Positions 18,569-50,025 of a stretch of 54,040 nt of DNA are shown one piece after another. The DNA lies in the IMG/VR virus record IMGVR_UViG_3300042869_000287, positions 1-54,040 of that record; one strand, written 5' to 3'. Both the position numbers and the translations under genes were made by a program. Numbering within the stretch: the first letter of the stretch is position 1; the number at the start of each line of letters is the position of its first letter. Source of the stretch: a virus. The notes beneath the pieces are model-generated. The model had not been told where the DNA came from, searched no databases, and saw only the letters and a program-made list of their open reading frames with translations.

Positions 18569-19900
18569 ATGACACCAGCGGATTTGAAGAAAGATGCCGG
18601 CAAAGGACCATACAAAGGAATGCCACGTAGTCAGGTTATGAAAAGAAAAATTGTTGATGGTAAAGATTTTACTCTCAACAGTGGTGCTAAGGTTAAAGCT
18701 ACAAACTGGGACGAAAGTACACTAACATTATTTGTAGGTACCCGTAAAATTTCACTGAAAGAAATTAAAAAAGATCCTGATTTTGGTGGAGGTGGATCTG
18801 GTGCCGGTGCTGATGTTACTGCAATTGTGGAATGTGGCCAAGCATTGGTTTGTTCATTAGTATACAATGTATTGAAACGACCAATTGAATGGGAAGATTT
18901 AAAATTAGATTTGCTTGAAAAAGCAATGAGCTTTTGTGATTTGTCTGATAGTTTGGATGCTATCATTGAGAAATCACCACCTGAATGGGTGCAGTCATAT
19001 GTTAAGTCAGCAAACATTCTTTATAAGAATTACAAGATGAGTGGTTCGCCTGTGTACTTTCACCGAGGTTCAAAGTTTATGAATGAAGTGTATAGTAGCA
19101 AGAAAATTGTTTATGATAATGATAAAAAATCAAAAAATCCACAAGCTCCAGGTTCTTTTTCCGATGACAAATGGAACCCAGGTGATATTTGGATGACAAC
19201 ATTAAGAATTGTTCCTAAAATTAATAGTGAATCTTGGGCAGCATTGAACAAAGATATTTATGACTTAGCACGTGCTAAGAAGTTGGTTGGTGTATCTTTG
19301 AAAAAAGTCGGTTCTTCCGCACATATTGAAGAATACAATGCATTAAGTGTCAAACAAACCAAAGATTATAATTATGGAGGTTTTCGTGTAACATCTGCAT
19401 CTGAACGTGGTGCATTGCCACCATTTTTTAATTCAATTGACTTATACATGACTGTTGGTGATAAAGAGATTCAATTCCGTGCCACATCAGGCGAAGCAAG
19501 CTGGCAAGGTGAGATTAAAGGTGCAACTGCTGCAGGTGGTAAAATCGGCGGCGGTAACGTAAATTTCTATTTGAAAAAGTATACTGGTAAAGGCGTATTT
19601 GATAGGGAAGAAAAAGAAGTAATTAATTTTACAAAGTCGAAAGATTTTTTTCCAGAATTTTATAAGTTATATGAAAAACATTTTACTGGCAAAGTTTTAT
19701 CCTATGAGGATTTTGTTATTAATGCAAAACTGAAACAAAAAGAATCAGCTGGTTATTTGTTTTCTAAATATATTAATATGAAATTTATTGACATATTTTT
19801 AAGTGCTAATGCTGCGACAAGAAATAAAATTGCGACCGACTTTTTAAGATATGCAGCATCCAATACCGACCAAAGTTCATTTTTCGTAAAGATATCCTAA
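18569..19900 (+). CDS. large hypothetical phage protein
   Basis: The 443-residue product begins MTPADLKKDAGKGPYKGM and has a Gly-rich turn GGGGSGAGADV near residue 75, then mixed alpha/beta sequence with YFHRGSKFMNEVY, PGDIWMTTLRI and a Gly-rich loop GGKIGGGNVNF near 330. I recognise no family with certainty; related proteins appear in aquatic T4-like phages. It overlaps the next gene by TAATG. Its ribosome site lies in a hairpin and a late-like promoter precedes it, so late expression is likely. Confidence 0.65.
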   Translation: MTPADLKKDAGKGPYKGMPRSQVMKRKIVDGKDFTLNSGAKVKATNWDESTLTLFVGTRKISLKEIKKDPDFGGGGSGAGADVTAIVECGQALVCSLVYNVLKRPIEWEDLKLDLLEKAMSFCDLSDSLDAIIEKSPPEWVQSYVKSANILYKNYKMSGSPVYFHRGSKFMNEVYSSKKIVYDNDKKSKNPQAPGSFSDDKWNPGDIWMTTLRIVPKINSESWAALNKDIYDLARAKKLVGVSLKKVGSSAHIEEYNALSVKQTKDYNYGGFRVTSASERGALPPFFNSIDLYMTVGDKEIQFRATSGEASWQGEIKGATAAGGKIGGGNVNFYLKKYTGKGVFDREEKEVINFTKSKDFFPEFYKLYEKHFTGKVLSYEDFVINAKLKQKESAGYLFSKYINMKFIDIFLSANAATRNKIATDFLRYAASNTDQSSFFVKIS

Positions 19901-21132
19901 TGAAATTTTCAGAATTTATAACCGAATCAAAAAAAGAAGGTGCCAATCTTCACCTCGAGCACATTGAGGATGAGGTGTTGAATCGTGGTGTTGCCGGCAC
20001 ACGTGATGCAATTAACTTTCTGCAATCGTTACGTGATATGTTGGCAGGCAATTCGTCATCTAAAGTGAACGTCACAACAAAATGGGATGGTGCACCTGCA
20101 GTTTTCTGTGGTATCAATCCAGACAATGGCAAGTTCTTTGTTGGTACTAAAGGTGTCTTCAATGCAAACCCTAAGTTAAACTACACTGATGATGATATTG
20201 ATGTAAACCATCCAAGTGGTGGTTTGAATGCTAAACTTAAAGTTGCACTACGTTACCTGCCAAAACTAGGCATCAAAGGCGTTTTGCAAGGCGACATGAT
20301 GTTCTCTAAAGGTGATATCAATACACAAACGATTGATGGTGAAGAATACATTACGTTTCAACCGAATACGATTGTATATGCTGTACCATCAGATTCAAAA
20401 TTGGCCAGAGCAATGACTTCTGCACAGCTGGGTATTGTCTTTCACACTTCATACACAGGCAAAACATTCTCTGACATGAAGGCATCATTCAATATCGATA
20501 TCAATCACTTGACTTCAACTAAAGATGTTTGGTTCCGTGATGCATACTTTGTTGACGCATCTGGCACAGTCACATTCACAGAGCAAGAAACAAAGGTATT
20601 GACTTCACACCTGTCACTTGCAGGTGCAACATTCCAATCCATCAATGCACTAACACTTAATAGAATTGCCTCAAGTGAAGTAGTACTCACTTACATTAAG
20701 ACATTCAACAATACCAAAGTGCGTGAAGGTAAAGAGATTAGAGATACTACTGCACACACAAACGAATTGATCCGTTGGGTTGAGGCCAAGTTAAACAAAG
20801 ATATCTCTGATGCCAAGAAAGAAGAAACTAAACAGAAACGGATCAAAGAGAAGACTGAGATTATGCGTTTCTTCCGTGGTTCGGCAAGAGATTTAAAAAG
20901 TATTTTTGATTTGATGAACCATTTGGTGGCATCCAAGAATATGATTGTTAGTAAGTTACAACAAATGAAACAAGTAACAAATACATTCCTACGTACAGAT
21001 GATGGTTTCAAAGTCACTAATCCTGAGGGGTTTGTGGCCGTGGATAAATTGAAGGGTAATGCAGTTAAATTAATTGACCGATTAGAATTTGCTCATGCGA
21101 ACTTCAATGCCGCAAAGGCGTGGACTAAATAA
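19900..21132 (+). CDS. ligase-like KWDG protein with capsid-targeting-like N-terminus
   Basis: The 410-residue product starts MKFSEFITES, close to the capsid-targeting sequence of T4 internal protein III. Residues 61-64 are KWDG in VTTKWDGAPAVF, the KxDG motif that is adenylated in DNA/RNA ligases and capping enzymes; GVLQGDMMF near residue 128 could be the acidic motif that follows. A nucleotidyltransferase fold is therefore plausible but not proven, and later ligase motifs are hard to place. Related large proteins exist in aquatic T4-like phages with no known function. The C-terminal third is Lys-rich and helical. It overlaps the previous gene by one base. Confidence 0.65.
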   Translation: MKFSEFITESKKEGANLHLEHIEDEVLNRGVAGTRDAINFLQSLRDMLAGNSSSKVNVTTKWDGAPAVFCGINPDNGKFFVGTKGVFNANPKLNYTDDDIDVNHPSGGLNAKLKVALRYLPKLGIKGVLQGDMMFSKGDINTQTIDGEEYITFQPNTIVYAVPSDSKLARAMTSAQLGIVFHTSYTGKTFSDMKASFNIDINHLTSTKDVWFRDAYFVDASGTVTFTEQETKVLTSHLSLAGATFQSINALTLNRIASSEVVLTYIKTFNNTKVREGKEIRDTTAHTNELIRWVEAKLNKDISDAKKEETKQKRIKEKTEIMRFFRGSARDLKSIFDLMNHLVASKNMIVSKLQQMKQVTNTFLRTDDGFKVTNPEGFVAVDKLKGNAVKLIDRLEFAHANFNAAKAWTK

Positions 21133-21135
21133 GAT

Positions 21136-21708: not shown

Positions 21709-21717
21709 GGAATAAAC

Positions 21718-36378: not shown

Positions 36379-36382
36379 TAAT

Positions 36383-36931: not shown

Positions 36932-36945
36932 AGAGAACTAAAAAT

Positions 36946-37227
36946 ATGGCAACTAAAAAATACGACCTAACCGCAATCATGGAAGAGTATGCTGATGATG
37001 ACTTCGGTTTCACGGCAACAGATGAAGAAGAATACAACTCCGTTATTGCCGAAAAAGATGACACGGTACAAGAATACAAAGAACGTCTGCAACAGGTAGA
37101 GAAACTAATTATGCCGTTTCTAACCAAGTTGTTGAAGACTGCCGACCAACCAATCATCAAGTGGCCTAATCGTAAAGAAACATTAGAGGCACAAATACAA
37201 AAAATACTTGCTTTAACCAGAGATTAA
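36946..37227 (+). CDS. small conserved acidic protein
   Basis: The 93-residue product starts MATKKYDLTAIMEEYADDDFG and continues as one long helix (EKDDTVQEYKERLQQVEKLI) with a second helix near the end. Similar small proteins with a TKKxDLxxIMEE start exist in aquatic T4-like phages. It may be a coiled-coil accessory protein; no function is known. It has its own promoter and is isolated from the sugar genes by a second promoter. Confidence 0.7.
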   Translation: MATKKYDLTAIMEEYADDDFGFTATDEEEYNSVIAEKDDTVQEYKERLQQVEKLIMPFLTKLLKTADQPIIKWPNRKETLEAQIQKILALTRD

Positions 37228-37236
37228 CTATATAAT
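37208..37236 (+). promoter_or_regulatory. sigma70-like promoter of the sugar island
   Basis: TTGCTT (37208-37213) and TATAAT (37231-37236) with a 17-bp spacer. It would drive the coupled genes from 37255 to 42873. Confidence 0.7.
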
Positions 37237-37254
37237 TGTACGAGGAGATATATT

Positions 37255-38091
37255 ATGAAAGATTTGATAATCGGATGTTCCACCGGATATAAATGGGACA
37301 CAATTAAGTATTGGGTCAACTCTATCAATCAGTCAGGTTTTACTGGTGATAAAGTTTTGATTATGATGAATGCTGATAAAGAGACTGTAGATAGAGTCAC
37401 TGATACAGGATTCAAAGTTATCGGATTCAAACGGGATGAACAAGGCAATCTTGTATATCAGTCCAATATTATGGTACACGTTGAGAGATTTCTACACATC
37501 TATAATTTCTTGTCACAGAATGAGTATCGTTATGTCATTACGACTGACGTTAAAGATGTTATCTTCCAAAGCAATCCATTCAAACACATTGAGAAACATA
37601 TGGGTCAACGTCAACTATTGATGTTCTCCTCTGAAAGTATGTTATACAAAGATGAACCATGGGGTAACCAAAACTTGTTGGAGACTTATGGTCAATTCAT
37701 CTATGATAGATTCAAAGATAATCCAATCTACAACGTTGGTGTATTGGCTGGTCGTGGTGATGCAATGCGTGACTTGTGCATGAATATCTTTTCATCATGT
37801 CTAAACAAACCAATTCCAATTTGTGACCAATCTACATTCAACTTCCTGATTTCACAAGAACCATACAAGTCAACTTGTCGTTATACTAAATCGGAAGATG
37901 GGTGGGCATGTCAACTTGGTACAACTGCAGACCCAAGTAAGATAGACCAGTTCAGACCATTCTTGTTGGAACCATCTCCACACATGGAGATAGATAAAGT
38001 AGTAACGTCACAGAATAAAGAGTATGTGATTGTTCACCAGTATGATAGAGTGCCTGCATGGCGAAAGATTATTGAAGCAAAATATGGCTAA
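37255..38091 (+). CDS. glycosyltransferase-like protein (GT-A)
   Basis: The 278-residue product has a GT-A-type nucleotide-sugar site TTDVKDVIF near residues 95-103 and DQSTFNFLI near 199-207, a layout like families that act on glycans with a DxxD site. The N-terminus LIIGCSTGYKWDTIKYWV has a Rossmann-like strand. It is the first gene of a seven-gene block (37255-42873) joined by overlaps. It has a GAGGAG site. The acceptor is unknown. Confidence 0.7.
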   Translation: MKDLIIGCSTGYKWDTIKYWVNSINQSGFTGDKVLIMMNADKETVDRVTDTGFKVIGFKRDEQGNLVYQSNIMVHVERFLHIYNFLSQNEYRYVITTDVKDVIFQSNPFKHIEKHMGQRQLLMFSSESMLYKDEPWGNQNLLETYGQFIYDRFKDNPIYNVGVLAGRGDAMRDLCMNIFSSCLNKPIPICDQSTFNFLISQEPYKSTCRYTKSEDGWACQLGTTADPSKIDQFRPFLLEPSPHMEIDKVVTSQNKEYVIVHQYDRVPAWRKIIEAKYG

Positions 38092-39043
38092 AATTTTATA
38101 TGTTGTCCACCGATATGCTCCATATCCCGGTGGTTCTGAAAATTATGTACGTGATATGGCAGAAGAAACATTCCGTAGAGGACATGATGTAACTGTACTT
38201 GCAGGCGAACACAAAGGTGATTTGAACGGAGTCAAAGTAACAAGTGACTTTCAAATTATGGGTTCAGAAGTCTTTGATTTGATTGTTGTGCATGGCGGTG
38301 ACGTTGGTGTACAAGATGTTGCATTGATGAACTCACAAAGAATTCCATCACCAATGTTGTTCATGTTGATTAAACCATCTGAGAGTGCCACATATCAACA
38401 TGCAATGAAACACGTTAAGTACATTGGTTGTTCAACCAAAGAAGATTGGGAATCAGCATTCAAACTTGGTCATCGTGACAAGGCAGTTCGGGTATCACAT
38501 GGCATCGATGCAGAGATTTCTTCTGGTACACCTGGATTCCGTGAGAAGTATGGAATCACAACACCATATATGTTCTTGTCGTGTGGTGGTTTCTGGCCTA
38601 ACAAAGCATTTCACGAATTGATTGCCACATTCAATGGTGTTGGTCGTGATGATGTTACACTTGTTCTGACTGGTTATGATAATCGTCACAACATCATGCC
38701 GCAAAATTCCAAACATGTGAAAGCGATGATGGTTGATGACCGCAATGATGTTATGTCTGCGATTAGAGATGCTGACCTTTATATCATGCACTCACACTCA
38801 GAAGGATTTGGATTGGTTCTACTGGAATCAATGTTAAATAGAACAGCATGGGCATCACGCAATATTGCAGGTGCCAAGGTGCTGAGTGATTTTGGATTCA
38901 CATATGATAATGATTCTGCTCTACGTGAGTACATGATTGATTTCAGAGGTGTGCCAGAGTCCAAACTTGATGATGCACATGAATACGTGATGAACGCACA
39001 TTTGATTAAAAACACAGTAAATGATATTTTGAAATTAATATGA
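38084..39043 (+). CDS. GT-B glycosyltransferase (family 4-like)
   Basis: The 319-residue product starts AKILYVVHRYAPYPGGSEN, the donor-side strand and glycine loop of GT-B enzymes, and has HSHSEGFGLVLLES near residues 233-246, the E-x7-E motif of family 4. It should transfer a sugar from a nucleotide-sugar. Start 38084 overlaps the previous gene by 8 nt; in-frame ATGs further upstream lie well inside that gene. It overlaps the next gene by ATGA. Confidence 0.85.
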   Translation: MAKILYVVHRYAPYPGGSENYVRDMAEETFRRGHDVTVLAGEHKGDLNGVKVTSDFQIMGSEVFDLIVVHGGDVGVQDVALMNSQRIPSPMLFMLIKPSESATYQHAMKHVKYIGCSTKEDWESAFKLGHRDKAVRVSHGIDAEISSGTPGFREKYGITTPYMFLSCGGFWPNKAFHELIATFNGVGRDDVTLVLTGYDNRHNIMPQNSKHVKAMMVDDRNDVMSAIRDADLYIMHSHSEGFGLVLLESMLNRTAWASRNIAGAKVLSDFGFTYDNDSALREYMIDFRGVPESKLDDAHEYVMNAHLIKNTVNDILKLI

Positions 39044-39663
39044 AAATAACTTTTGGTATAACAACAGACTACTCTAATCAACCACAAATCAACGAAGTAA
39101 TCTCCTCTATCAGATCACTACAAATACCTGAGTATGAGATTTTAATTGTTGGTGGTGAGAAGAAAGAAGATATGGTTGACGTAACGCATATCTATTTTGA
39201 TGAGACTCAACAACCTAGTTGGGTAACACGCAAGAAGAACACCATTGTTCAGGCAGCAAAGTATGATAACATCGTATTGATGCACGACTACTATGTGTTT
39301 GATAAAGATTGGTACAAGAACTTCTTGGAGTTTGGTGAAGAATGGCACATCTGTTCTAACAAACAACTACTCATTAATGACAAGAGACACTTTACAGATT
39401 GGGTGACATGGGATGATCCTGTATTCCCACGTTACACTGCACTGAGACATGATGATTGGTCACGTGCTAACTATATGTACATATCTGGTGGTTACTTTCT
39501 AGTGAAGAAACAAGTTGCACTAGATAATCCATTCAACGAAGAACTCACACACGGCCAAGCCGAAGATGTTGAGTGGTCTCTCCGTGTGCGTCATAGATAT
39601 GTGATGAAATGTAATGGTAACAGTATTGTGAAACATAATAAGTGGCATAGAGATGCAAAATAA
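39040..39663 (+). CDS. glycosyltransferase family 2-like protein
   Basis: The 207-residue product has KITFGITTDYSNQPQINEVISS, the first strand and helix of GT2 enzymes, then NIVLMHDYYVF near residues 80-90 in the position of the DxD loop (here HDY), and GQAEDVEWSLRVRH with the acidic ED base motif near 180. It lies in the coupled sugar block, with an 11-nt overlap into the next gene. The altered DxD site leaves activity uncertain. Confidence 0.72.
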   Translation: MKITFGITTDYSNQPQINEVISSIRSLQIPEYEILIVGGEKKEDMVDVTHIYFDETQQPSWVTRKKNTIVQAAKYDNIVLMHDYYVFDKDWYKNFLEFGEEWHICSNKQLLINDKRHFTDWVTWDDPVFPRYTALRHDDWSRANYMYISGGYFLVKKQVALDNPFNEELTHGQAEDVEWSLRVRHRYVMKCNGNSIVKHNKWHRDAK

Positions 39664-41023
39664 ATTAGTAATTTTTGACCTTGACGGTGTATTGATTGAA
39701 TCACGTGAACTACATTATGAAGCATTGAATGATGCTCTACGTAAAGTTGGTAGTGAGTATGTGATTACACGTGAAGAACACTTGAGTTTGTATGATGGTC
39801 TAAACACCACAAAGAAACTTGAGATGTTGTCTGAGAAGAAAGGTCTTGACCGTAAATTCTTCAATCAGATTTGGCAAGATAAACAAGTTGCCACATTCAA
39901 CCTCATCAGACAATTTCCAAAGAATAACAAACTTAGGCAGATGTTTGCCAAGTTGAGTAGTAATGGAATTAAGATTGCTATTGCAAGTAATTCTATACGT
40001 GAGACAGTTAAGTTGGCACTATTGTCTGTTGGTGTCATGGAGTATGTTGATTACTATGTCTCTAATGAGGATGTTAAGAGAACCAAACCATATCCTGAGA
40101 TGTACTGGCAATGTATGACAGCATTAGATGTACTACCTAAGAATACAGTTATCATTGAAGACAGTCATATTGGCAGACAAGGCGCACTAGATTCTGGTGC
40201 TCACTTAGTTCCAGTTAAAGATTCATATGACTTGACGATGGATAAAATTGATGAAGCAATCGATACACTTAACGGTGTAATTAAGAAAATGATACCATGG
40301 AGAGATAAAAAAATGAACGTACTAATTCCTATGGCTGGCGCTGGTAGTAGATTCGCAGCAGCTGGTTACACATTCCCTAAACCATTGATTGAGGTTAATG
40401 GTAAACCAATGATTCAAGTTGTTGCAGAAAACCTAAACGTTGATGCACACTTCATCTACATTGTACAAAAGGAACACTATGATAAATACAACCTCAAACA
40501 ATTATTAAACTTAATCTCACCTGGTTGTGATATCGTACAGGTTAATAGTTTGACAGAAGGCGCAGCATGTACAACTCTGTTGGCCAAAGAACTTATTAAC
40601 AACGATGAGCCATTACTGATGGCGAACTCAGACCAATATGTGGAGTGGAACTCAAATGAATGTCTCTATGCTTTTACTGCTGACGGCGTTGATGGTGGTA
40701 TCGTTACCTTTAGGGCAACCCATCCAAAGTGGTCATTTGCAAAACTCGGAGATGACGGTTTCGTCACAGAAGTAGCAGAGAAGAATCCAATTTCAAATAT
40801 CGCAACAGTCGGTATCTACTATTGGAAAAAAGGTTCTGATTATGTTAAGTATGCTGAACAAATGATTGAAAAGAATATCCGTACCAACGGAGAATTCTAT
40901 GTGTGTCCAGTATTCAATGAAGCCATTGGTGATGGTAAGAAGATTCGTGTCAAAGATATTCCTAAGATGTGGGGCATTGGTACTCCAGAAGATTTAAATT
41001 ACTTCTTGGAGAATCATAAATGA
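39653..41023 (+). CDS. HAD phosphatase-sugar nucleotidyltransferase fusion
   Basis: The 456-residue product joins two enzymes. Residues 1-210 are a HAD hydrolase of the beta-phosphoglucomutase type: DLDGVL at 8-13, ASNS near 113-116, a KP pair near 145 and IIEDSHIGRQGA near 165-176. Residues from 221 are a nucleotidyltransferase: MAGAGSRF at about 227-234, YTFPKPLIEVNGKPMI after it and MANSDQYVEW near 325. One chain could remove a phosphate and activate a sugar-1-phosphate. The Met at residue 221 has GGAGAG 8 nt upstream, so the second half may also be made alone. Confidence 0.85.
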   Translation: MQNKLVIFDLDGVLIESRELHYEALNDALRKVGSEYVITREEHLSLYDGLNTTKKLEMLSEKKGLDRKFFNQIWQDKQVATFNLIRQFPKNNKLRQMFAKLSSNGIKIAIASNSIRETVKLALLSVGVMEYVDYYVSNEDVKRTKPYPEMYWQCMTALDVLPKNTVIIEDSHIGRQGALDSGAHLVPVKDSYDLTMDKIDEAIDTLNGVIKKMIPWRDKKMNVLIPMAGAGSRFAAAGYTFPKPLIEVNGKPMIQVVAENLNVDAHFIYIVQKEHYDKYNLKQLLNLISPGCDIVQVNSLTEGAACTTLLAKELINNDEPLLMANSDQYVEWNSNECLYAFTADGVDGGIVTFRATHPKWSFAKLGDDGFVTEVAEKNPISNIATVGIYYWKKGSDYVKYAEQMIEKNIRTNGEFYVCPVFNEAIGDGKKIRVKDIPKMWGIGTPEDLNYFLENHK

Positions 41024-41736
41024 AAGTTGCAGTTGTATTAACAGGACACCTCCGATGTTGGAGAGAGGTGTTTCCTAATTTCAAAGAAAAGATTATTGAC
41101 CGATACAATCCCGATATCTACATACACACATGGGATGATGAGGCGTATTGGATTCCTGGTGATAAACAAAATAAAACAGGTATCTATGAAGGCGCACCAC
41201 AAATTGTTGATGATGAAATATTAGACACATACAAACCAGTACACTATGTGAAAGAGTATTGGGAAGATTTCAATAAACACTTTGAATCTTGTGGTGAATA
41301 CTTTACGAACTATGCACACAGACCAAAGAATATTCTATCGATGTTCTACAAGATGCACCAAGGTTTCTCTGCACTTGAAACACACGTTGCACGACTACAA
41401 TCATCATATGATTTGGTAATTCGTATGCGTCCTGATATGTTGATACACGATGACCTGCCTGATTTTGATCCAAATGTATTCTACACTGTTGCAGCCAGAA
41501 ACCATTTAGGTCAAGGCACCGGTGATGTAATGCAAGTTGGTAACTTTATTTCTATGATGTTCTTCACCAAAATGATTACTGTAATTGGTTCTGTCTACAA
41601 ACAAACTGATCTATTATGTCCTCATGTGATGTCAACGCAACACATTAAGAACCTTGGATTCAACTGGCAGGAGATAAATCTAAATAGAACTCTCATGCAC
41701 ACACCAAAAGGACCTTATGTTGAAATGGACAAGTAA
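41020..41736 (+). CDS. glycosyltransferase-like protein of the sugar block
   Basis: The 238-residue product starts KVAVVLTGHLRCWREVFPNF and has DIYIHTWDDEAYW and LVIRMRPDMLIHDD near residue 135, where the RPD segment sits like the DxD loop of GT-A enzymes. This pattern (VLTGHLR, hTWdd, RPDm) recurs in unnamed phage and bacterial glycan loci. I cannot assign a CAZy family. It overlaps its neighbours on both sides. Confidence 0.65.
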   Translation: MKVAVVLTGHLRCWREVFPNFKEKIIDRYNPDIYIHTWDDEAYWIPGDKQNKTGIYEGAPQIVDDEILDTYKPVHYVKEYWEDFNKHFESCGEYFTNYAHRPKNILSMFYKMHQGFSALETHVARLQSSYDLVIRMRPDMLIHDDLPDFDPNVFYTVAARNHLGQGTGDVMQVGNFISMMFFTKMITVIGSVYKQTDLLCPHVMSTQHIKNLGFNWQEINLNRTLMHTPKGPYVEMDK

Positions 41737-42412
41737 TACGTTTAAAGATATCATAGAATTAAAAGATGGACCTGTAACCTATTCCGATAACGGCAGAGGT
41801 AATCTTAAGATGAGTAATCATCTTTATCCCTACTCCATCAAAGAAGAAGAATTTAACTTTCTAAAAAATCTAATCGTAGAACATAACCTTCAACGTGGTT
41901 ATGAATGTGCAACAGCATTTGGTATCAGTTCAACAGCATTAGGTTTGGGTTTCTTGGAAACTGGTGGTAAGGTCGTAACAATGGATGCCTACATTGAAGA
42001 ATCTAAAGGTAATCCAGGTCACTACAGAGATATGCAACGTGAAGTGTATGATAAGGCCGATGGTTACAAATCAGTTAAGTATTTGATTGAACAGTTTGGT
42101 TTAGAGAACACACTCTTTCCAGAGATTGGTTGGAGTCCTGATGATACAGAGACTTGTGTACGTAGACATTTCTCTGAGCCACTAGACTTTGTATTCATTG
42201 ACGCAGGACATTTCCCTGAACAAATGATTAAAGACATTGATGCATTTTTGCCATTGCTTGGTGAAAAGTATGTGTTGGCATTCCATGATGTGTATGACCA
42301 CAGTTTCGCAGAATCAGTACATGACCACTTATTCAACAAGATTGGTAAAAAGGTTGAGATTAAACTTTATTATCCTGCAGGTGAAAATATGGGAGTTGTG
42401 ATAAACGTATGA
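41717..42412 (+). CDS. SAM-dependent methyltransferase
   Basis: The 231-residue product has a class I fold with a motif I-like CATAFGISSTALGLG near residues 57-71, VVTMDAYIE near 85-93 and FVFIDAGHFPEQMIKDID near 158-175, as in the Methyltransf_24 type. It may methylate a sugar made by the same gene block. The variant glycine loop makes the cofactor site unusual. It overlaps the previous gene by 20 nt and the next by ATGA. Confidence 0.75.
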   Translation: MLKWTSNTFKDIIELKDGPVTYSDNGRGNLKMSNHLYPYSIKEEEFNFLKNLIVEHNLQRGYECATAFGISSTALGLGFLETGGKVVTMDAYIEESKGNPGHYRDMQREVYDKADGYKSVKYLIEQFGLENTLFPEIGWSPDDTETCVRRHFSEPLDFVFIDAGHFPEQMIKDIDAFLPLLGEKYVLAFHDVYDHSFAESVHDHLFNKIGKKVEIKLYYPAGENMGVVINV

Positions 42413-42873
42413 TACTAATTGCACACCGTGGTAATACTAATGGACCGAAACCACATTTAGAAAATAGTCCAGATTATATTGATTTAGCTCTTGAAGATGG
42501 ATTTTCAGTAGAAGTGGACTTATGGTGTGTCGATGATGTTTTATATTTTGGCCACGACAATCCACAATATCTGGTGGATCCTGAGTATTTGATGGTACGT
42601 AAACAAACACTATGGATTCACTGCAAAAATAAAGAAGCATTCAGTTATTGTCTAAAAAACAAACTGCATTGCTTCTGGCACAGTGTGGATGACTACACGA
42701 TGACCAATTGGGGTTATGTTTGGGCATATCCTGGTAAAGAACCAGTGAACCAATTGACAGTATTGGTGATGCCAGAGAATGTCTGGCCAACGAAGAAAAC
42801 GATATCTCTTAATGCTTTTGGTGCATGTTCTGATTGGGTTGGTGAAATTCGTGATTACATAAATAGAATATAA
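42409..42873 (+). CDS. short GDPD-like phosphodiesterase
   Basis: The 154-residue product begins ILIAHRGNTNGP with the catalytic HRG of glycerophosphodiester phosphodiesterases, then ENSPDYIDLALEDGFSVEVDLW and FGHD, which give the metal-binding E and D and the second His. Full GDPD barrels are about 240 residues, so this is a short form, yet the active-site loops of the first half are all present. It may act on a phosphodiester-linked headgroup or glycan, given the neighbours. Confidence 0.75.
   Translation: MILIAHRGNTNGPKPHLENSPDYIDLALEDGFSVEVDLWCVDDVLYFGHDNPQYLVDPEYLMVRKQTLWIHCKNKEAFSYCLKNKLHCFWHSVDDYTMTNWGYVWAYPGKEPVNQLTVLVMPENVWPTKKTISLNAFGACSDWVGEIRDYINRI
42858..42865 (+). promoter_or_regulatory. 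late-promoter-like CATAAATA
   Basis: CATAAATA matches T4 late TATAAATA in seven of eight positions and lies 31 nt before the ATG at 42897. A TATAAT at 42869-42874 follows without a -35 box at the right distance. Confidence 0.45.
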
Positions 42874-42896: not shown

Positions 42897-45290
42897 ATGA
42901 AATTTAGTCGGTTTATACAAGAGGCCAAAGGCCAGTCCAAGGTTATTGTCGTTTATGGCGGTGGTTTCCAACCATTTCACGCTGGTCATATGAGTAGTTA
43001 TGAACAGGCTAAACGTGCATTCTCATCTGCCGATTTCTATGTTGCAGCCAGCAACGACACCAAGAATCGACCAATCCCATTCAAAGACAAACAATTCTTA
43101 GCGCAACAAGCAGGCGTTAACGATAACTTTGTTCAGGTCTCACAACCAGTTAATCCAACTGAAATTCTATCACGTTACGATCCTAAGAAAGACATTCTGA
43201 TTCTTGTTCGTAGTGAAAGAGATCCTGTGAACTATACCAAAAAAGATGGTTCACCAGCATACTATCAACCATTCAAATCAATCAAAGAGTGTAAATCATT
43301 TGATCCAAAAGGTGGACATGGATATGTTTATGTAACGAAAAAACACATCTTCAAAGTAAATGGCCAAGAAGTTTATTCAGGCAGTCAAATACGTTCAATG
43401 TACACAAAGGCCGATGACGCTGGTCGTAAAAATATGATTAAAGATTTGTATCCAAAAGCCACAAAGCCTGCAAAATTAAAACAACTACTAGACAAATATA
43501 TCGGTGGCAATATGAAAGAATCAGCAGACGAATTATTTGAATCTTTGTTCGTTGAATCTGTTGATGATTCATTTGAGATACTACTGAGTGAAGGTGTACA
43601 TGATGCATCCATTTTCAAGGCAGTATTCTTAGCAGGTGGTCCAGGTTCTGGTAAAGATTATGTGCTTGACAATACACTTGCAGGTCATGGTTTAACAGAA
43701 ATCAATTCGGACAGAGCATTAGAGTTTATGATGGACAAACAAGGCCTTGATAAGAAGATGCCTTCTGCTGAAGAAGATAAACGTAACTTTGTTCGTGGTC
43801 GTGCAAAAACCATTACAGATTTGCGCCAACGTTTGGCATTGTTAGGTCGTAATGGTTTGATTATCAACGGCACTGGTGATGATGTTGAGAAAACTAAGAA
43901 GATTAAAGCAAGACTAGAAGAACTTGGTTATGATACCAAAATGCTTCTGGTTAATACACGTGATGAAATTTCTGCACAGAGAAACATTGAACGTGGCCAA
44001 CGTGGTGGTCGTGCCGTACCCGAAACAATACGTAAAGAGAAGTGGGATTCGGTACAGAACTCACGCACAGAATATGCCAAGTTGTTTGGTACAAACTACA
44101 TTGAGTTTGACAATTCGGAAGACTTACGTTCGGCAGACCCCGAAGTCGTAAAGCAAAAGAAAATGGAGTTGATGGATATCTTTAAGAACGTCCGTGAATT
44201 CACACAGGCGCCACCTAAGAGTGAACCTGCTGAGTTGTGGATTGCTTCTGAGATGGAACGCAAGAACAGGTTTGCAGTACCACCAAAACAGGCAGAGTTG
44301 TCCGCACATGCCGATGGCCAAGGTGCCGCAGCTGACCAAGCACACAAACTTGGTCTATCATACTATGGTTTTGGTCGTTATGGTAAACAAGGCAAAGTTA
44401 CACACCATACAGTCAATGGTAAGTTGGTTGAAGTGCCAAAAGAGAAACCAGGTGAGGTCAGTGTACCAACAACTGGTTCGTCAATGAAGAAAATCCAAGA
44501 GGCAGCATATACTGGTAATATCGGTATGATGGAAGTTATGAAGTTCCATCAGAAAGCCACACCAGAACAAAAGAAAGAGTTTAAATCGCACATGGCCAAT
44601 AACAAACACGGCGATGCATGGAAATTAATTCAAGATGTGTCTGGTGTTAAGTTGGTTGGTAAAGAATTCGAATCAAATGATAAATATGTTACTGATAAGA
44701 ATGGAAATCCTAGAATGTTTATGTTGCGCCGAAATGCAGCAAAAGAAGCACACACCAAAGATGGTGAAGTGGTGCAACAGGGTAAAGGTTATGTCGTCAA
44801 ATTAAAGGAGAATAAAAATGATGAGATTTTTCAAAGGACTATTGAGTCGCAAACAATCGGTACAAGAACCAGCTTTACTGAAGCCTTCGGTGGTAGTGGT
44901 GGAGTCAGTCGTGCCAGTGGTCGAAACACCTCCAGTGGAAGTTCCAGTGGCCGTTGTGCCACCTGTGGTAAAATCAACGAAGACTGTGGCTGCGAAACCA
45001 ATTCCACCAAAAAACTCACGCTCTCAAAAATCAGGGAACGCCAAGCCGAGAAAATCAAAGAGTCCATCGACAAAGGCATAGAACCTGGATTATCCATGGC
45101 TGCGTCTGGTGAAAGCATTGGGCGTGACATGGGTGAAAAGATTAAAAAAAGGACTGGTAAAGCATCACAGGTTGTAGAGATGCAAGGTGATGAAACCGGT
45201 GCTTCTATTGGTGCTCAAAAAGAAGATGAGTTGAAGAAAAAAGGTATTTCTTTGTTATCATTTAAATCTAACAAGGCGATTGGTGCATGA
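42897..45290 (+). CDS. fused nucleotidyltransferase-P-loop kinase with capsid-targeting-like N-terminus
   Basis: The 797-residue product starts MKFSRFIQEA, like the T4 IPIII capsid-targeting sequence. Residues about 15-200 are a cytidylyltransferase-like domain: VVYGGGFQPFHAGH at 18-31 (HxGH) and GSQIRSMY near 162-169 in place of ISSTxxR, as in NadM-type adenylyltransferases. Residues about 240-430 are a P-loop kinase with FLAGGPGSGKDYV near 243-255. A long low-complexity region follows, with CATCGKINEDCGC near 687-699, a possible zinc knuckle. Such a fusion could work on nucleotides or NAD-like cofactors. Another reading frame with a strong ribosome site lies inside (44818-45081). Confidence 0.82.
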   Translation: MKFSRFIQEAKGQSKVIVVYGGGFQPFHAGHMSSYEQAKRAFSSADFYVAASNDTKNRPIPFKDKQFLAQQAGVNDNFVQVSQPVNPTEILSRYDPKKDILILVRSERDPVNYTKKDGSPAYYQPFKSIKECKSFDPKGGHGYVYVTKKHIFKVNGQEVYSGSQIRSMYTKADDAGRKNMIKDLYPKATKPAKLKQLLDKYIGGNMKESADELFESLFVESVDDSFEILLSEGVHDASIFKAVFLAGGPGSGKDYVLDNTLAGHGLTEINSDRALEFMMDKQGLDKKMPSAEEDKRNFVRGRAKTITDLRQRLALLGRNGLIINGTGDDVEKTKKIKARLEELGYDTKMLLVNTRDEISAQRNIERGQRGGRAVPETIRKEKWDSVQNSRTEYAKLFGTNYIEFDNSEDLRSADPEVVKQKKMELMDIFKNVREFTQAPPKSEPAELWIASEMERKNRFAVPPKQAELSAHADGQGAAADQAHKLGLSYYGFGRYGKQGKVTHHTVNGKLVEVPKEKPGEVSVPTTGSSMKKIQEAAYTGNIGMMEVMKFHQKATPEQKKEFKSHMANNKHGDAWKLIQDVSGVKLVGKEFESNDKYVTDKNGNPRMFMLRRNAAKEAHTKDGEVVQQGKGYVVKLKENKNDEIFQRTIESQTIGTRTSFTEAFGGSGGVSRASGRNTSSGSSSGRCATCGKINEDCGCETNSTKKLTLSKIRERQAEKIKESIDKGIEPGLSMAASGESIGRDMGEKIKKRTGKASQVVEMQGDETGASIGAQKEDELKKKGISLLSFKSNKAIGA
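44818..45081 (+). CDS. candidate nested gene in another frame
   Basis: An 87-codon frame lies wholly inside the 797-residue gene. AAAGGAG at 44804-44810 stands 7 nt before ATG 44818, one of the best ribosome sites in the window and not needed by the host frame. The product starts MMRFFKGLLSRKQ, has a Val/Pro-rich middle (VVPVVETPPVEVPVAVVPP) and a Lys/Ser/Pro-rich basic end. It has no signal peptide or known domain. The low-complexity pattern may simply mirror the host codons, so expression must be shown. Confidence 0.4.
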   Translation: MMRFFKGLLSRKQSVQEPALLKPSVVVVESVVPVVETPPVEVPVAVVPPVVKSTKTVAAKPIPPKNSRSQKSGNAKPRKSKSPSTKA

Positions 45291-45577
45291 AAACACTTAA
45301 ACAATTTATAGAATCTGCAGCTTGGCAGAGAAAAGAAGGAAAGAATCCTGAAGGTGGTTTAAACCGCAAAGGCATTGCTTCTTATCGTGCAGAAAATCCA
45401 GGTTCTAAACTATCGATGGCAGTTACAACTCCACCATCAAAATTAAAAGCCGGTTCAAAGGCAGCAAACAGACGCAAATCATTCTGTGCAAGGATGGGTG
45501 GTGTGGATGGACCGATGAAGAAGCCAAATGGCGAACCAACACGCAAAGCATTAGCGCTACGCAAATGGAATTGTTAA
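45287..45577 (+). CDS. small DUF6321-like protein
   Basis: The 96-residue basic product has AAWQRKEGKNPEGGLNRKG, RAENPGSKL and the Cys-containing RKSFCARMGGVDG, a pattern found in many T4-like phages of aquatic hosts and likely the DUF6321 family. It starts MKTLKQFIES, like the capsid-targeting sequence of T4 IPIII. It may be a basic DNA-binding protein packed in the head; this is inference. It overlaps the previous gene by ATGA. Confidence 0.78.
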   Translation: MKTLKQFIESAAWQRKEGKNPEGGLNRKGIASYRAENPGSKLSMAVTTPPSKLKAGSKAANRRKSFCARMGGVDGPMKKPNGEPTRKALALRKWNC

Positions 45578-45601: not shown

Positions 45602-46687
45602 ATGGAATTTAAAGATAAAATTAACCAATCAGTTGCAGCAGCAGTTGCAAAAATTATGGGTGAAGCTTTGCATCCAAACCAACAAAAGTTGGATGTACAT
45701 GAGCCAGAAAAAGATAAATTGACTGCTGATGACTTCAAAAAGCTTCGTGCTAAAAAAGGAATGAAGAAAGAAGAAGTTGAACAAATTGATGAGTTGACTG
45801 GTAAAGGTCAATTACCTGCTATTAAAAAAGCTCATGCGGATGCTGCTTCGGACGCATCTAATAAAATGAACACAGTAAGAAGTTCTAATATCGTACTTCC
45901 TGTACCAAAAGAAAAAACAGCAAAAATTAATGCTCTAGATTCTGCAAAAAAATATCACGCAGCTCAATCGACACGTGCTGGAGCTTTAATGAAAAAAGCA
46001 GGCATTAAAGAAGAAGTTGAATCAATCGATGAAGTTAAGATGGCAGATTTACCATCAACTAAAGTACAAGGCCGTTCATATGGTGCATCTAAGCCTGAAG
46101 CAAGTGCCTTTGATGTACTAAAAGGACCAAAAGAAAAAGAATTAAAATCTATTGAGTCTGAAAAGAAGAAAAAACCAGTTAATGAAGAAGATTCTGAATT
46201 AACTTTGGATGATTATTTGTTGGAAGATTTGGTTGAGTTTGTTATGTCGGAAGAATTCCAACAACTTGACGAACTAAGCAAATCCACTTTAGGTTCTTAT
46301 GTTACAAAAGCATCTAAAGACATGCGTTCACACGCACAAATGGCTGGATCAAAAGATACTGCTTTGATGGCACATCAAATGGGTTACCGCCGTGGTGAAA
46401 AGTCTCCAATTAAAGGTGGCACCAAAGGTGAGAAACGTGTATCTTCAGAAATTGCTAAACATCAAACTAAAGCAAACAACAGAACTGCTGGTATTGCTGG
46501 TGCTGCTCAAAGATTAGCAAAAGAACAATTTGAAATTACTGAAGAAGATGCATACGATAAGAATGTAAAACCTTCAGATAAACCACACGATAAAGATGCA
46601 GCAAAGAAACGTGCTCAAACTTCAGCTGTTGCAGCTAGAAAAGTTATGAGTATGTCAGCATATTCAGCATCCAAGAAAAGTGAATGA
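45602..46687 (+). CDS. repeat-bearing scaffold-like or polyprotein-like protein
   Basis: The 361-residue, charged, Lys/Glu/Ala-rich product has three copies of an EEVEQIDEL motif (EEVEQIDEL, EEVESIDEV, EEFQQLDEL) spaced exactly 240 nt, i.e. 80 residues. After the third copy comes SKSTLGSYVTKASKDM, a helix repeated in varied form in the next gene. Low hydrophobicity suggests a flexible, elongated protein. Similar proteins in aquatic T4-like phages lie among head genes. The IDE/LDE triplets resemble prohead-protease sites only partly. It overlaps the next gene by ATGA. Confidence 0.65.
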   Translation: MEFKDKINQSVAAAVAKIMGEALHPNQQKLDVHEPEKDKLTADDFKKLRAKKGMKKEEVEQIDELTGKGQLPAIKKAHADAASDASNKMNTVRSSNIVLPVPKEKTAKINALDSAKKYHAAQSTRAGALMKKAGIKEEVESIDEVKMADLPSTKVQGRSYGASKPEASAFDVLKGPKEKELKSIESEKKKKPVNEEDSELTLDDYLLEDLVEFVMSEEFQQLDELSKSTLGSYVTKASKDMRSHAQMAGSKDTALMAHQMGYRRGEKSPIKGGTKGEKRVSSEIAKHQTKANNRTAGIAGAAQRLAKEQFEITEEDAYDKNVKPSDKPHDKDAAKKRAQTSAVAARKVMSMSAYSASKKSE

Positions 46688-48420
46688 TGGCTAAACCAGC
46701 ATCTAAAGTTTTTAAAGCAATTCGGCAAGAAGACAGTGGTCCTTGTTGGGATAATTATAAACGTGTACCCGGTAAAAAACCATATTCTCCAGGTTCTTGC
46801 GTAAAAGAATCTTCACCAGAAGATGAGATGAATGAAGATTTGCGTAAGTGGTTTAGTAAGACTGATCCAGAAGGTGGTTGGAAAAGAATTAACAGTAAGG
46901 GTGAAGCAATTGGTCCTTGTGCAAGAGAACCTGGTGAACCTAAACCAAAATGTATGTCTAACGAGAAGCGAGCATCTTTAACTAAAAAAGAAAGAGCATC
47001 GGCCGTTGCATCTAAAAGAAAACATGACCCTAATCCTGAGAGGAAGGGTGAACCAATTAACGTGTCCAACTTTGGAAAAGGAAAGATAAGTGAAGATATG
47101 GAAAATTTAAACGAAAAAAATGTGCCAACAAGTCCTGAGAAATGGGCGCAAGCCAAGGCACAGGCTAAATCTAAATTCGATGTTTATCCATCTGCTTATG
47201 CCAATGGCTGGGCTTCGAAGAAATATAAAGAGATGGGTGGTGGTTGGAAATCTGTCTCTGAAGCAAAAGAAAAAACTGAGTATGATTACGAAGGTGATAT
47301 GGCACGTGGCCAATTACAAAGTGTAATCAACAATGCTCAAAGAGTGCATGACATGTTAAAAGATAATGATAATCTTCCTGAGTGGGTACAATCTAAAATC
47401 ACATTAGCTGAAGATTACATTTCAACAGTTGCTAATTATATGATGAGTGAGATTGACGAAGCAAAAGAAATTGGTGATGACCCAATTGGATCTTCTGCAC
47501 AAGAAACTCTGGTAAAGAAAGGTGGCAAAACCACTGTTGCTAAACCAATCACAGAAGCATCTTCTGTTGCAGTAAGAATACAAAAAGCTTTAGACCGAAT
47601 TAAAGCAAAGCGTGAAGCATCAGAACAACGTGGCCGAGAAGTTTTACAACCAAAGAAACCTGAACCTGTTAAAGAAGAAGTTGAGATTGAAGAAGAAAGT
47701 CATCAGTCTAAAACAACAATGAAGCACATTCCAAATCCATCACCTGCGCTTAAAGATGCGGCTAAACGTATTAAGCCGGGTATTTCAGGCATTCGGGATC
47801 GCTTTGACATGCTCGATGCTGGTGGTGTTAAAAGAGAACAAGTCGAACAGTTGGATGAATTGTCGCCTAATGCATTGGGTAATTACATGAAAGCTGGTCA
47901 CAAGAAGTATGACAGTATCAGAAACAACACCGATTCAGCATCAATGGCCAAAAAGTCCAAATTGGAAACTGGAATCAAAAAGGCTGCTGCCAAAAGATAT
48001 CCTGCCAAACCATCTACACCTGAACCAAAGAAAGACCCGAACAGTCGAGGTTACGAACAAGGCCGTTACATGGGTGACAGCGTTGAACAAGACGAATCTT
48101 TAATTGAAGGCATGATGGGAGACACTGGTTGGCAAAAGTCTAAATCTAAAACAGATACAGTTACCGATAAATCTGGTGCAGTTCACACAGCACAGTCTAA
48201 GGTCAGAGATTTGGCACGTAAAGCAATGAAAGCTGCCGGTGCAAAACAAGTTAAAAGTGTAGGTACTAAGTCAATGAAAGAGTCTACATTAGTCGAATCA
48301 CGTAAGACAGATATTATTAAAGATGCGGTGAATTCTGCCAAGAAGAAGAAGTCTGCACCTGATAAATTCGAATCAGAACCAGTTTTGGATTCACAGATTC
48401 AAAAAGTTGACAACACATAA
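46684..48420 (+). CDS. modular low-complexity protein with Cys-bearing phage modules
   Basis: The 578-residue product combines several modules known from aquatic phages: GPCWDNYKRVPGKKPYSPGSC near residues 19-39, then RKWFSKTDPEGGWKRIN with PCAREPGEPKPKC (about 54-90), and PSAYANGWASKKYKEMGGGW near 168-190. A VEQLDELSPNALGNYMKAG unit near 387-405 is shared with the previous gene. The rest is Lys/Ser/Glu-rich and probably disordered. The many Cys pairs suggest small metal or DNA-binding units. It may be a head-associated polyprotein; this is inference. Its start (ATGATG) overlaps the previous stop. Confidence 0.65.
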   Translation: MMAKPASKVFKAIRQEDSGPCWDNYKRVPGKKPYSPGSCVKESSPEDEMNEDLRKWFSKTDPEGGWKRINSKGEAIGPCAREPGEPKPKCMSNEKRASLTKKERASAVASKRKHDPNPERKGEPINVSNFGKGKISEDMENLNEKNVPTSPEKWAQAKAQAKSKFDVYPSAYANGWASKKYKEMGGGWKSVSEAKEKTEYDYEGDMARGQLQSVINNAQRVHDMLKDNDNLPEWVQSKITLAEDYISTVANYMMSEIDEAKEIGDDPIGSSAQETLVKKGGKTTVAKPITEASSVAVRIQKALDRIKAKREASEQRGREVLQPKKPEPVKEEVEIEEESHQSKTTMKHIPNPSPALKDAAKRIKPGISGIRDRFDMLDAGGVKREQVEQLDELSPNALGNYMKAGHKKYDSIRNNTDSASMAKKSKLETGIKKAAAKRYPAKPSTPEPKKDPNSRGYEQGRYMGDSVEQDESLIEGMMGDTGWQKSKSKTDTVTDKSGAVHTAQSKVRDLARKAMKAAGAKQVKSVGTKSMKESTLVESRKTDIIKDAVNSAKKKKSAPDKFESEPVLDSQIQKVDNT

Positions 48421-48423
48421 ATA
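48416..48423 (+). promoter_or_regulatory. late-promoter-like CATAAATA
   Basis: CATAAATA with TAACAATAA after it, 25 nt before ATG 48448. The same TAAATATAACAATAA string stands before the virion gene at 25720, at 25694-25708. Confidence 0.5.
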
Positions 48424-48447
48424 TAACAATAATTCTAGGAGAAAAAC

Positions 48448-48786
48448 ATGCCTTTATTTTCAATGACAGACGCAAACACAGGTGCTCCAAAGTGGGCAGT
48501 TGCCGGTGGTTTGGGTGTAGCCAACAACGGCCACGACTTATATGCTAACTCAACATCCAGTGCATTTGTTACTGGTGCCGCAGTTGGAGTATTTGGTGTG
48601 TCCGATGCTGAGATTGCTCTATCTACAAACAAAGCAAACAAACCTGCTCACACAGGTTGGGTTCTAATTAAACAAGGTACTGGTAGTCGCACCGGCCGTG
48701 TACAAACTGAAGTTCTAGTTGCTGGTGGTATGAGTGCTGATGCAGCCACTGGTGCCAACGACAACATAATGTTCGCCAATACCTAA
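48448..48786 (+). CDS. conserved virion-type protein
   Basis: The 112-residue product starts MPLFSMTDANTGAPKWAVAGG and has GVFGVSDAEIAL, HTGWVLIKQGTGSRTGRVQTE and ETLVA-like VLVAGG near the end. This pattern (kP.h, GVFGVDa.E, HaGWV.r..GtGGRaGRV..EtLVA) is conserved in aquatic T4-like phages and thought to be a structural protein. A GGAG site and a late-promoter-like sequence precede it. Confidence 0.75.
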   Translation: MPLFSMTDANTGAPKWAVAGGLGVANNGHDLYANSTSSAFVTGAAVGVFGVSDAEIALSTNKANKPAHTGWVLIKQGTGSRTGRVQTEVLVAGGMSADAATGANDNIMFANT

Positions 48787-48793
48787 TATAAAC

Positions 48794-48809
48794 TGGAGTT
48801 TCGACTCCA
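48794..48809 (+). terminator. UUCG stem-loop
   Basis: TGGAGT (48794-48799) and ACTCCA (48804-48809) flank TTCG. No T-run follows, so it may mark the 3' end or protect it more than terminate. It ends 10 nt before the next start codon. Confidence 0.5.
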
Positions 48810-48818
48810 CTATTAGAT

Positions 48819-49238
48819 ATGACATTTAAATCATTCCTTAAAGAGTTCTATTCTATAGAACCTAATCAGGCCAAGGAAGCACACGAACCGACTGGTGAAT
48901 CTTCATCATCGGTTCAAAATCCTATTGTAGTATCCGAAATCAACGCTCAGTTGTATAGAGAATTGAACGTTGATGGGTTTAGAGTTGCACAAGATGGTAT
49001 ACAGAAAGTTCGTAAGGTATTAAATTCCTTTGGACTAGATATACCTGCGTTATATGAATTGGATGTTGAAGGTGACGAAATTACCTTTGACATTCATCAG
49101 TTTGACAATCCAGATAATATGGTTTATTTGTATTTGTTGTACTACCTATCAGACGCAGGTAATTACGAGTTTTATGCACAAGTAGGTGACGAAGAAACAA
49201 TTAACGCACTAGTCACCGAAGAACCAGAAGAAGATTAA
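48819..49238 (+). CDS. hypothetical protein with capsid-targeting-like start
   Basis: The 139-residue acidic product starts MTFKSFLKEF, a weaker match to the FxxFIxE pattern shared by other genes here. The body (INAQLYRELNVDGFRVAQDG, IQKVRKVLNSFGLDIPALYE) looks like one alpha/beta domain, and the C-terminus is very acidic. No family is recognised. It overlaps the next gene by TAATG. Confidence 0.6.
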   Translation: MTFKSFLKEFYSIEPNQAKEAHEPTGESSSSVQNPIVVSEINAQLYRELNVDGFRVAQDGIQKVRKVLNSFGLDIPALYELDVEGDEITFDIHQFDNPDNMVYLYLLYYLSDAGNYEFYAQVGDEETINALVTEEPEED

Positions 49239-49630
49239 TGTCCTTTGATAATTTAAATAATGATAATATAATGTTATATGCAGCGAAGTCTTATGATAAG
49301 CCTGACTGCATAATGAGTGAGTTTAAGGAGGACATGAAGAGGTTTAACTACCTCAAAAGATTATTTCAGAGGTATCGAAGGTATGATGATATGCGTGAAA
49401 GGTTGGTGTTAAACCACCTCATCGTCATATACAATGTGTTTGGAGTAGAGGTTGCAACTAGAATGTTATTCTTTAAAGTTGCCAAAGATGATTATGCTGT
49501 ATTGAAAACGTATTTGTTATTTTTAAATTACATGCCACAGGTTATACGTGGCATTAAAGGACAAGATTTATTATCTTCTGATATTGCGGTTGATATGAGA
49601 ATCGCAGAAGTATTAAGGAACATAAAATGA
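49238..49630 (+). CDS. conserved all-alpha phage protein
   Basis: The 130-residue product with NDNIMLYAAKSYDKPDC, FKEDMKRFNYLKRLFQRY and RLVLNHLIVIYNVFGVEVATR resembles a family found in most aquatic T4-like phages (probably the one listed as DUF7207). It is helical and carries no membrane segment. The function is not known. It is coupled on both sides by one- to four-base overlaps. Confidence 0.72.
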   Translation: MSFDNLNNDNIMLYAAKSYDKPDCIMSEFKEDMKRFNYLKRLFQRYRRYDDMRERLVLNHLIVIYNVFGVEVATRMLFFKVAKDDYAVLKTYLLFLNYMPQVIRGIKGQDLLSSDIAVDMRIAEVLRNIK

Positions 49631-50025
49631 TAAAGTTTAATGAGTATACAGTTTTAGAAGAAGGTCGTCCTTCTCAACGCCATCCACTAGAAGGCCACGA
49701 ATATCATAGGAAGTCTGATGAGGCATTGATACACATTGCCAAAGATGCACACGAAGCTGCAGAAGCAATGAAGTCACACAATACTACGGCAGAGAACAAG
49801 TATCGTGACCAAGCAAATGATTCTGCAACAGTAAGACACTATCGCAAGACACATGGTATGAAAGATTGGTACAAAAAGAAATATGGCCACATGAAAGAAG
49901 ATGTACCAACTAACTCTGTTGGTACTGGTGCAGAGACTTCATTGCCACCATCAGTAGAACCTGGTGTTAAGAAGAAGAAAGTACCTTCATTCATTTCATA
50001 TGTACCACGTAGGACTCCTCAGTAA
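49627..50025 (+). CDS. hypothetical protein of the head/lysis junction
   Basis: The 132-residue product starts MIKFNEYTVLEEG; its FNEYTVLEE is a loose match to the capsid-targeting pattern. His- and Lys-rich segments (RHPLEGHEYHRKSD, HYRKTHGMKDWYKKKYGH) and a Pro/Lys tail follow. It may bind nucleic acid, but no family is recognised. It overlaps both neighbours. Confidence 0.6.
   Translation: MIKFNEYTVLEEGRPSQRHPLEGHEYHRKSDEALIHIAKDAHEAAEAMKSHNTTAENKYRDQANDSATVRHYRKTHGMKDWYKKKYGHMKEDVPTNSVGTGAETSLPPSVEPGVKKKKVPSFISYVPRRTPQ

Follow-up and report, generated by a model that had tools for sequence, protein, structure and literature searches.

T4-type capsid-targeting sequences on putative enzymes of an IMG/VR virus fragment suggest a set of head cargo proteins

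The DNA analyzed here, a 54,040-base linear fragment of an IMG/VR virus (record IMGVR_UViG_3300042869_000287; hereafter the window) with 65 called genes, encodes proteins whose N-termini resemble the capsid-targeting sequence (CTS) of T4 internal protein III (IPIII). Judged by their sequences, the proteins starting at positions 19900, 42897 and 48819 are very probably capsid-targeted internal head proteins with a T4-type tag, and the protein at 45287 is probably capsid-targeted as well. Capsid targeting is well supported because conservation is selective at the positions mapped in T4, the prohead protease gp21 is encoded by relatives, late promoters are present, and tagged relatives occur in virions. 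The capsid targeting named in the original prediction thus has good support in 19900, 42897 and 48819 and is likely in 45287, while the protein at 49627 does not have an N-terminal tag.

Mutational work on T4 IPIII assigned residues 4 and 7 to targeting and residues 8 and 10 to processing, and IPIII with D at position 10 was still targeted, but was not cut (reviewed in PMC9026906). The rule derived from the T4 mutational analysis, [FYLWM]xx[FYLW][ILVM]xE inside residues 2–13, places bulky hydrophobic residues at i and i+3, I or L at i+4 and E at i+6. The N-termini in the window were MKFSEFITESKK (19900), MKFSRFIQEAKG (42897), MKTLKQFIESAA (45287), MTFKSFLKEFYS (48819) and MIKFNEYTVLEEGRPS (49627). 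The targeting positions are occupied by F3 and F6 in 19900, 42897 and 48819, and by L4 and F7 in 45287. The processing residues (I or L, then E) are present in the same three proteins; in 45287 the E comes one residue early, and 49627 does not have them. The likeness to T4 IPIII that had been proposed for 19900 and 42897 is therefore present and fits the T4-derived rule, and 48819, which had been called a looser match, fits the full rule too. The start of 45287 is a near match, which fails the strict rule by one lost residue, although its relatives fit it.

When the window was searched for the motif, a check suggested in the original prediction, the rule matched three proteins (19900, 42897 and 48819), against 0.18 expected from shuffled N-termini and 0.22 from internal positions; for an aromatics-only rule the expectation was 0.04, with three matches observed. 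The excess recurs in the relatives G001 (5 versus 0.33), G003 (5 versus 0.5) and G006 (4 versus 0.4), and in the isolates Melnitz (4 versus 0.7), S-CRM01 (8 versus 1.2) and T4 (5 versus 1.1), and is absent from phiM12 and S-CBWM1. As a positive control, the T4 start MKTYQEFIAEA was recovered from two adjacent open reading frames (ORFs) of internal proteins, and T4 gene 61.1 matched as well. One type of tag is found on unrelated bodies, which are DUF6267, the nucleotidyltransferase-kinase with two kinds of N-terminal domain, DUF6321, the 48819 family, a SAM lyase and a kinase.

The tag of the protein at 19900, MKFSEFITE/S (19900..19926, + strand; here and below the slash marks the putative or known cut after E), fits the T4 rule and opens a 410-aa DUF6267/phrog_455 protein with ligase-like motifs (19900..21132, +; Pfam PF19782, 4e-115; PHROG 455, 6e-108). 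Among 55 unique relatives, F3, L/I7 and E9 are kept in all 55 and F6 in 54, with Y in the other one. At P1′, directly after E, no residues other than S, A and G occur, and variation is seen at positions 2, 4, 5 and 10. In the structure model residues 3–9 form a helix, followed by a low-confidence stretch (9–16). In the pelagiphage branch, [LI]xE stands immediately ahead of the DUF6267 domain in 49 of 49 unique proteins, often in the short form MELLNE/D, as read from the 19 forms listed. The residues K61-x-D63-G64 (KxDG, 61–64), E376-G377 and K390 are invariant in 20 and 31 relatives, and these motifs, like those in ATP-dependent ligases and covalent nucleotidyltransferases, suggest a ligase-like protein. 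The DUF6267 model (pLDDT 78) had no PDB match below E 0.5, with ligases only at E of about 2–4, and the proposed function is for this reason drawn from the motifs. Because the single PHROG 455 profile holds both DUF6267 (20–341) and a cytidylyltransferase (375–722), some phages have them as a fusion. The same operon encodes an untagged phrog_1462 protein (18569..19900, +); one homologue, S-SCSM1_90, carries the annotation of a virion protein.

The 797-aa putative cargo protein at 42897 (42897..45290, +) consists of the tag MKFSRFIQE/A (42897..42923, +), a nucleotidyltransferase (residues 19–107), a P-loop kinase (241–388), a 40-aa module and a C-terminal region. Its Pfam matches are CTP_transf_like and Zeta_toxin (4e-11). 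The middle domain, with the Walker A sequence GGPGSGK and Foldseek matches to adenylate kinase, polynucleotide kinase (PNK) and zeta at about 1e-6 to 1e-5, is predicted from sequence and model to be a P-loop kinase of the zeta-toxin/PNK type. The nucleotidyltransferase domain, which gave a poor structure model, could be an NMNAT or another nucleotidyltransferase. From residue 156 on, the protein is shared with G001_50316 (51%), while the nucleotidyltransferase domains of the two differ, having the motifs GGFQPFHAGH and FGRMNPPTTGH, respectively. Both proteins nevertheless start alike, with MKFSRFIQE in 42897 and MKFREFITE in G001_50316, and MKFxxF[LI]xE is kept ahead of two different HxGH nucleotidyltransferase domains. 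In this family the tag is constant and the domain that follows is swapped; tagless homologues begin at the domain itself (MATIVVYGGGFQPFH).

The third protein that fits the rule, with the tag MTFKSFLKE/F, has 139 aa (48819..49238, +). Its tag is kept in six relatives; it reads MISFSEFLKEE in L402, has lost the E in MIHFKEFLNID and is absent from L403. The protein at 45287 (45287..45577, +; 96 aa; Pfam PF19846, 1e-22) belongs to DUF6321 and has the degenerate tag MKTLKQFIE/SAAW, with one residue fewer before E (E9 in place of E10), and the N-termini of its relatives, MKSFKAFITETPAW and MKSFKQFLEESAAW, fit the rule. DUF6321 is found in an untagged form (MATAAWTRKEG), in a tagged form (MKSFKQFLEE/SAAWQRKEG), and inside larger proteins after, for example, FLSE/SAAW.

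The 40-aa module of the fusion (A..LGL.Y.GFG.Y...GKVTH...GKLV; 44331..44456, +) was found in 12 of 3833 proteins from 19 genomes, at 11 homologous places in relatives besides the window copy. A tag within residues 2–30 is present in all 12 module proteins, compared with 108 of the 3,821 others. A module profile built from one body type retrieves the other body types, and a Pfam search with the module gave no match. As the bodies are of four unrelated kinds, the independent evidence amounts to about four cases, not twelve.

Tagged proteins have also been detected by mass spectrometry in the virions of relatives. Virions of S-SM1 contain the putative cytidylyltransferase T4-GC190 (Sullivan et al. 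2010, PMC3037559), and this protein, SSM1_190, starts with MKKFSAFLNEA. S-SZBM1_140 was among 30 proteins found in the virion, and its neighbor S-SZBM1_141 was not (PMC9146016); the former is tagged (MRFRQFIIEA), while the latter is an untagged DUF6267 protein. S-SCSM1_91, which was found in the virion (PMC9602691), starts with MKSFLQFLKEA. In all, the tag is present in the virion nucleotidyltransferases of four T4-like cyanophages (S-SM1, S-SCSM1, S-SZBM1 and S-CREM2). The S-CREM2 tags (PMC10665884) are those of ORF154 (MKNFSSFLTEA), the SAM lyase ORF6 (MKDFDSFLEE), the kinase ORF14 (MKRFDAFLTEE) and ORF13 (MKDLHSFLTE); in ORF12 the motif lies 17 residues downstream of the annotated start. 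When all 219 S-CREM2 genes were taken as annotated in the deposited record, virion detection applied to 4 of the 5 tagged proteins, compared with 48 of the 214 without a tag (Fisher P 0.012; P 0.0016 when known structural proteins were excluded), and by the aromatic rule all three tagged proteins were detected. A virion kinase of S-CRM01, as cited in PMC10665884, is taken to be g130, which is annotated as a serine/threonine kinase and starts with MISFDQFLSE.

The passages of the S-CREM2 paper at hand do not mention a targeting sequence (PMC10665884), and a search of the open-access literature, with subscription journals outside it, found no paper joining virion enzymes with a capsid-targeting tag. 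The proposed novelty of this cargo set has to be qualified, in that virion enzymes have already been reported in cyanophages; it is for their link to the tag that no report was found. As a separate observation, the S-CREM2 virion protein annotated as Cas9/Csn1 (OR473000, 7704–10313; L189) falls into phrog_3561 and gave no match in Pfam, and the Cas9/Csn1 name looks unsafe. The start given in the annotation probably lies 5′ of the real one, because the tag is first seen at about residue 18.

A candidate processing enzyme was found in relatives, and promoter matches in the window point to the expected timing of expression. A gp21 family search gave no match in its bacterial control set, and phage genomes were checked instead; gp21 was present in G001, G003, G006 and G007, as in all ten complete relative genomes searched. 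The gp21 homologues of the relatives themselves have N-termini such as MKLITETIESVKYLSE followed by A. Most of the relatives' major capsid proteins have [LI]xE at about residues 50–65, aligned with the T4 site FLTE/A, the known maturation site after E65. The late-promoter string NATAAATA has four occurrences in the window at 8–50 bp ahead of a gene start, with 0.31 expected; three of them precede tagged genes or their operons. The site GATAAATA (18539..18546, +) is 22 bp before ORF 18569 of the 18569–19900 operon, with an orthologous site in G001 (42019). The site CATAAATA precedes ORF 42897 by 31 bp (42858..42865, +), with an equivalent ahead of G006 83143, and also ORF 48448, in an operon with 48819, by 24 bp (48416..48423, +), with orthologues in G001 (56977) and G006 (89511). 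These matches predict late expression of the 18569–19900 operon, of 42897 and of the 48448–48819 operon. In Melnitz the string occurs 21 times versus 1.4 expected, and the genes that it precedes include those of the scaffold, the capsid protein and a free-standing kinase as well as the tagged 12203 operon.

The resemblance of the N-termini could be explained by composition alone, since AT-rich phage genes have MK starts rich in F, I and E. Loose patterns are in fact common: [FYLWIM][ILVM]xE anywhere in residues 2–13 has little power (3 matches in the window versus 1.9) and has 27 matches in T4, and the stricter rule also has a false positive, the MazG of Syn9. On the other hand, shuffled N-termini gave 0.04–0.2 matches against the three observed, the 55 relatives of 19900 keep just the key residues, all 12 proteins with the cargo module are tagged, and the tag is associated with virion detection. 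Chance similarity was rejected by the shuffles, the internal-position controls and the selective conservation, and we regard this explanation as highly improbable. It is also unlikely, if less so, that the shared N-terminus binds some other target, for example the replisome or a membrane anchor, and that the proteins found in virions are contaminants. The cargo genes adjoin gp41 and uvsX in many genomes, and the authors of the S-CREM2 study allow for co-purification of abundant infection proteins (PMC10665884). This explanation is opposed by the late promoters, by the match of the tag-end [LI]xE to the capsid-protein site, by the experimentally proven T4 precedent, and by the fact that nearly all undetected S-CREM2 proteins are without the tag. 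Several further points weigh against capsid targeting. The virion detections rest on CsCl-purified particles, orthologues are not independent observations, and none of the relatives has a known cleavage product. HTVC008M, S-PM2 and phiM12 have no significant motif excess. The cyanophage versions of DUF6267 (e.g., S-SZBM1_141) are untagged and start at the domain itself, hence packaging of this family is not universal. Finally, the gp21 homologue, which the original prediction had proposed to look for, was found in close relatives and not in the window, a 54-kb fragment.

While targeting of the 42897 protein is thus favored, the processing of its interior is a more balanced matter. Between the nucleotidyltransferase and the kinase is a CTS-like junction, FEILLSE/GVHD (43572..43592, +), which is a candidate gp21 site. 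Like the 40-residue module, the internal [LI]xE/G junction is a feature that goes beyond the original prediction. In 25 unique sequences of the family, P3 is L or I, P1 is E and P1′ is G in all 25, while P2 is free and the upstream residues vary. Free-standing kinases carry a tag at the corresponding place (MKTFAELQE/GVYD, MIPFILKE/GLYD), which together with the junction pattern suggests a fusion of two tagged genes. Whether gp21 would cut the fusion internally is, from these sequences, about an even question. The competing explanation, to which we give somewhat less than an even chance, is that the N-terminal tag targets the prohead and is cut, whereas [LI]xE/G of the kinase is a structural feature of its domain and is not processed. 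In its favor, the residues G-V-H-D beyond the junction are likewise invariant, and the distant kinase of Atu_ph07 has VTE/GVND, with V at P3. It accounts less well for fixed P3 and P1 beside variable P2 and upstream residues, for a tag at the start of free-standing kinases, and for the complete CTS heptad, which is present at 12 of 25 kinase junctions compared with 6.1% of 2,072 other [LI]xE sites.

These data suggest a pathway in which 19900, 42897, 48819 and probably 45287 would be made late in infection. The first nine or so residues would fold into a short helix that may dock on the prohead core through its hydrophobic face (F3, F6, I/L7), and gp21 would then cut after E9, releasing the enzyme within the head. 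The second heptad of the fusion, FEILLSE/G, would probably be cut too, giving two enzymes from one precursor. The released enzymes might enter the next host along with the DNA; injection is proposed from the T4 precedent. We infer the core docking, cleavage and injection, and that the proteins of the window itself behave in this way. Most likely the enzymes would serve to act at time zero of infection, either by countering host defence or by altering the host's metabolism of nucleotides, NAD or nucleic acids, and two readings fit the cargo: a nucleic-acid end-repair kit (kinase and ligase-like protein) or NAD/nucleotide reprogramming. For the tagged SAM lyase of S-CREM2, an anti-restriction role as in T4 IPI would fit by analogy.

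More broadly, there is about an even chance that a large group of T4-like phages, the Kyanoviridae and freshwater relatives, has a modular injected-enzyme system, in which the ten-residue tag directs whatever protein bears it into the head, fused cargo is split there at built-in gp21 junctions, the 40-residue module has a part in packaging or release, and a kit of nucleotidyltransferase, kinase, ligase-like protein and SAM lyase acts before phage gene expression. The sea holds abundant T4-like phages of this group. The tag turns scattered reports of cyanophage virion enzymes into a testable rule, that the first ten residues predict head cargo, and yields candidate injected effectors from sequence alone. 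The phages may begin to reprogram or disarm the host with pre-made enzymes, and the internal junctions, if true, would make the prohead protease a polyprotein processor.

Downstream of 45287, two Lys-rich mosaic proteins (45602 and 46684; 45602..48420, +) have repeated [LI]xE and no clear tag. The mosaic proteins (window 45602–48420; G001_53425, G001_54967 and G006_86485) show fast shuffling of repeated short segments. In five of them [LI]xE occurs 43 times versus 21.3±4.3 expected, with other spacings at chance; this enrichment is only suggestive because the mosaics are related by homology and the reversed pattern E.[LI] also exceeds expectation. The proteins at 45602 and 46684 may be internal head proteins, for which the case is weaker. 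The protein at 49627 (49627..50025, +), which had been listed among the tagged N-termini, was rejected as such: it is a free-standing copy of an internal module, its residues 4–95 being 87% identical to residues 350–435 of the larger relative G001_54967, and [LI]xE/GRPS stands ahead of this module in relatives too.

The window also contains T4-type replication genes, which are a clamp loader (7310), DNA polymerase (12173), UvsX (14720) and a DnaB-like helicase (16027), and a probable sugar- or surface-modifying gene run (35818–42873) with a 2OG-Fe(II) oxygenase, a glycosyltransferase, a HAD-nucleotidyltransferase fusion and a methyltransferase. A second cytidylyltransferase-like protein (10809) is without the tag. 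By DUF6267, the closest isolates are Methylophilales phage Melnitz (52%), DLP6, Pelagibacter phage HTVC008M and T4-like cyanophages, and IMG/VR holds near-identical relatives of the window as well as relatives at 75–84%, with G001, G003, G006 and G007 among these.

Tag-like starts were also observed in two proteins of isolates. T4 gene 61.1 (L404 667–831; record 18966–19130), annotated as hypothetical, starts with MKTFKEFIKED and is located close to gp41, as is the cargo cluster in the relatives; its product looks like a capsid-targeted protein of T4 that has so far gone unrecognized. In Melnitz, a RimK-type ATP-grasp protein (L001 82–1131) with a TTG start begins with MTQKFSQFITE and adjoins the DNA polymerase, and it is a candidate for further cargo.

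The window proteins resemble T4 IPI, IPII and IPIII in the N-terminal 10-residue tag, with hydrophobic residues at i and i+3, I or L at i+4 and E at i+6, in the unrelated bodies behind one tag and in the predicted late expression, and gp21 is present in close relatives. They differ in that the tag is followed by large enzymes or fusions of enzymes, where T4 has small basic proteins, the tag is shorter by one residue (F3/F6/E9), and there are a probable internal cleavage junction and an extra 40-aa module common to the cargo. T4 Alt, a packaged and injected ADP-ribosyltransferase, is likewise a large enzyme whose N-terminus has a short [LI]xE propeptide, and its start MELITE is resembled by the pelagiphage DUF6267 start MELLNE/D, although the enzymes are different and no homology to Alt was found. 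The NMNAT-like and kinase proteins of cyanophage virions (S-SM1, S-SCSM1, S-SZBM1, S-CREM2 and S-CRM01) are homologous or analogous enzymes with the tag, share the 40-aa module in part, and were published as virion-associated, with no capsid-targeting sequence mentioned in the passages available. The ejection proteins of phiKZ and SPN3US are also head cargo cut after xxE by a gp21-type protease, while their propeptides are mostly longer than 100 residues and their sites are A-x-E.

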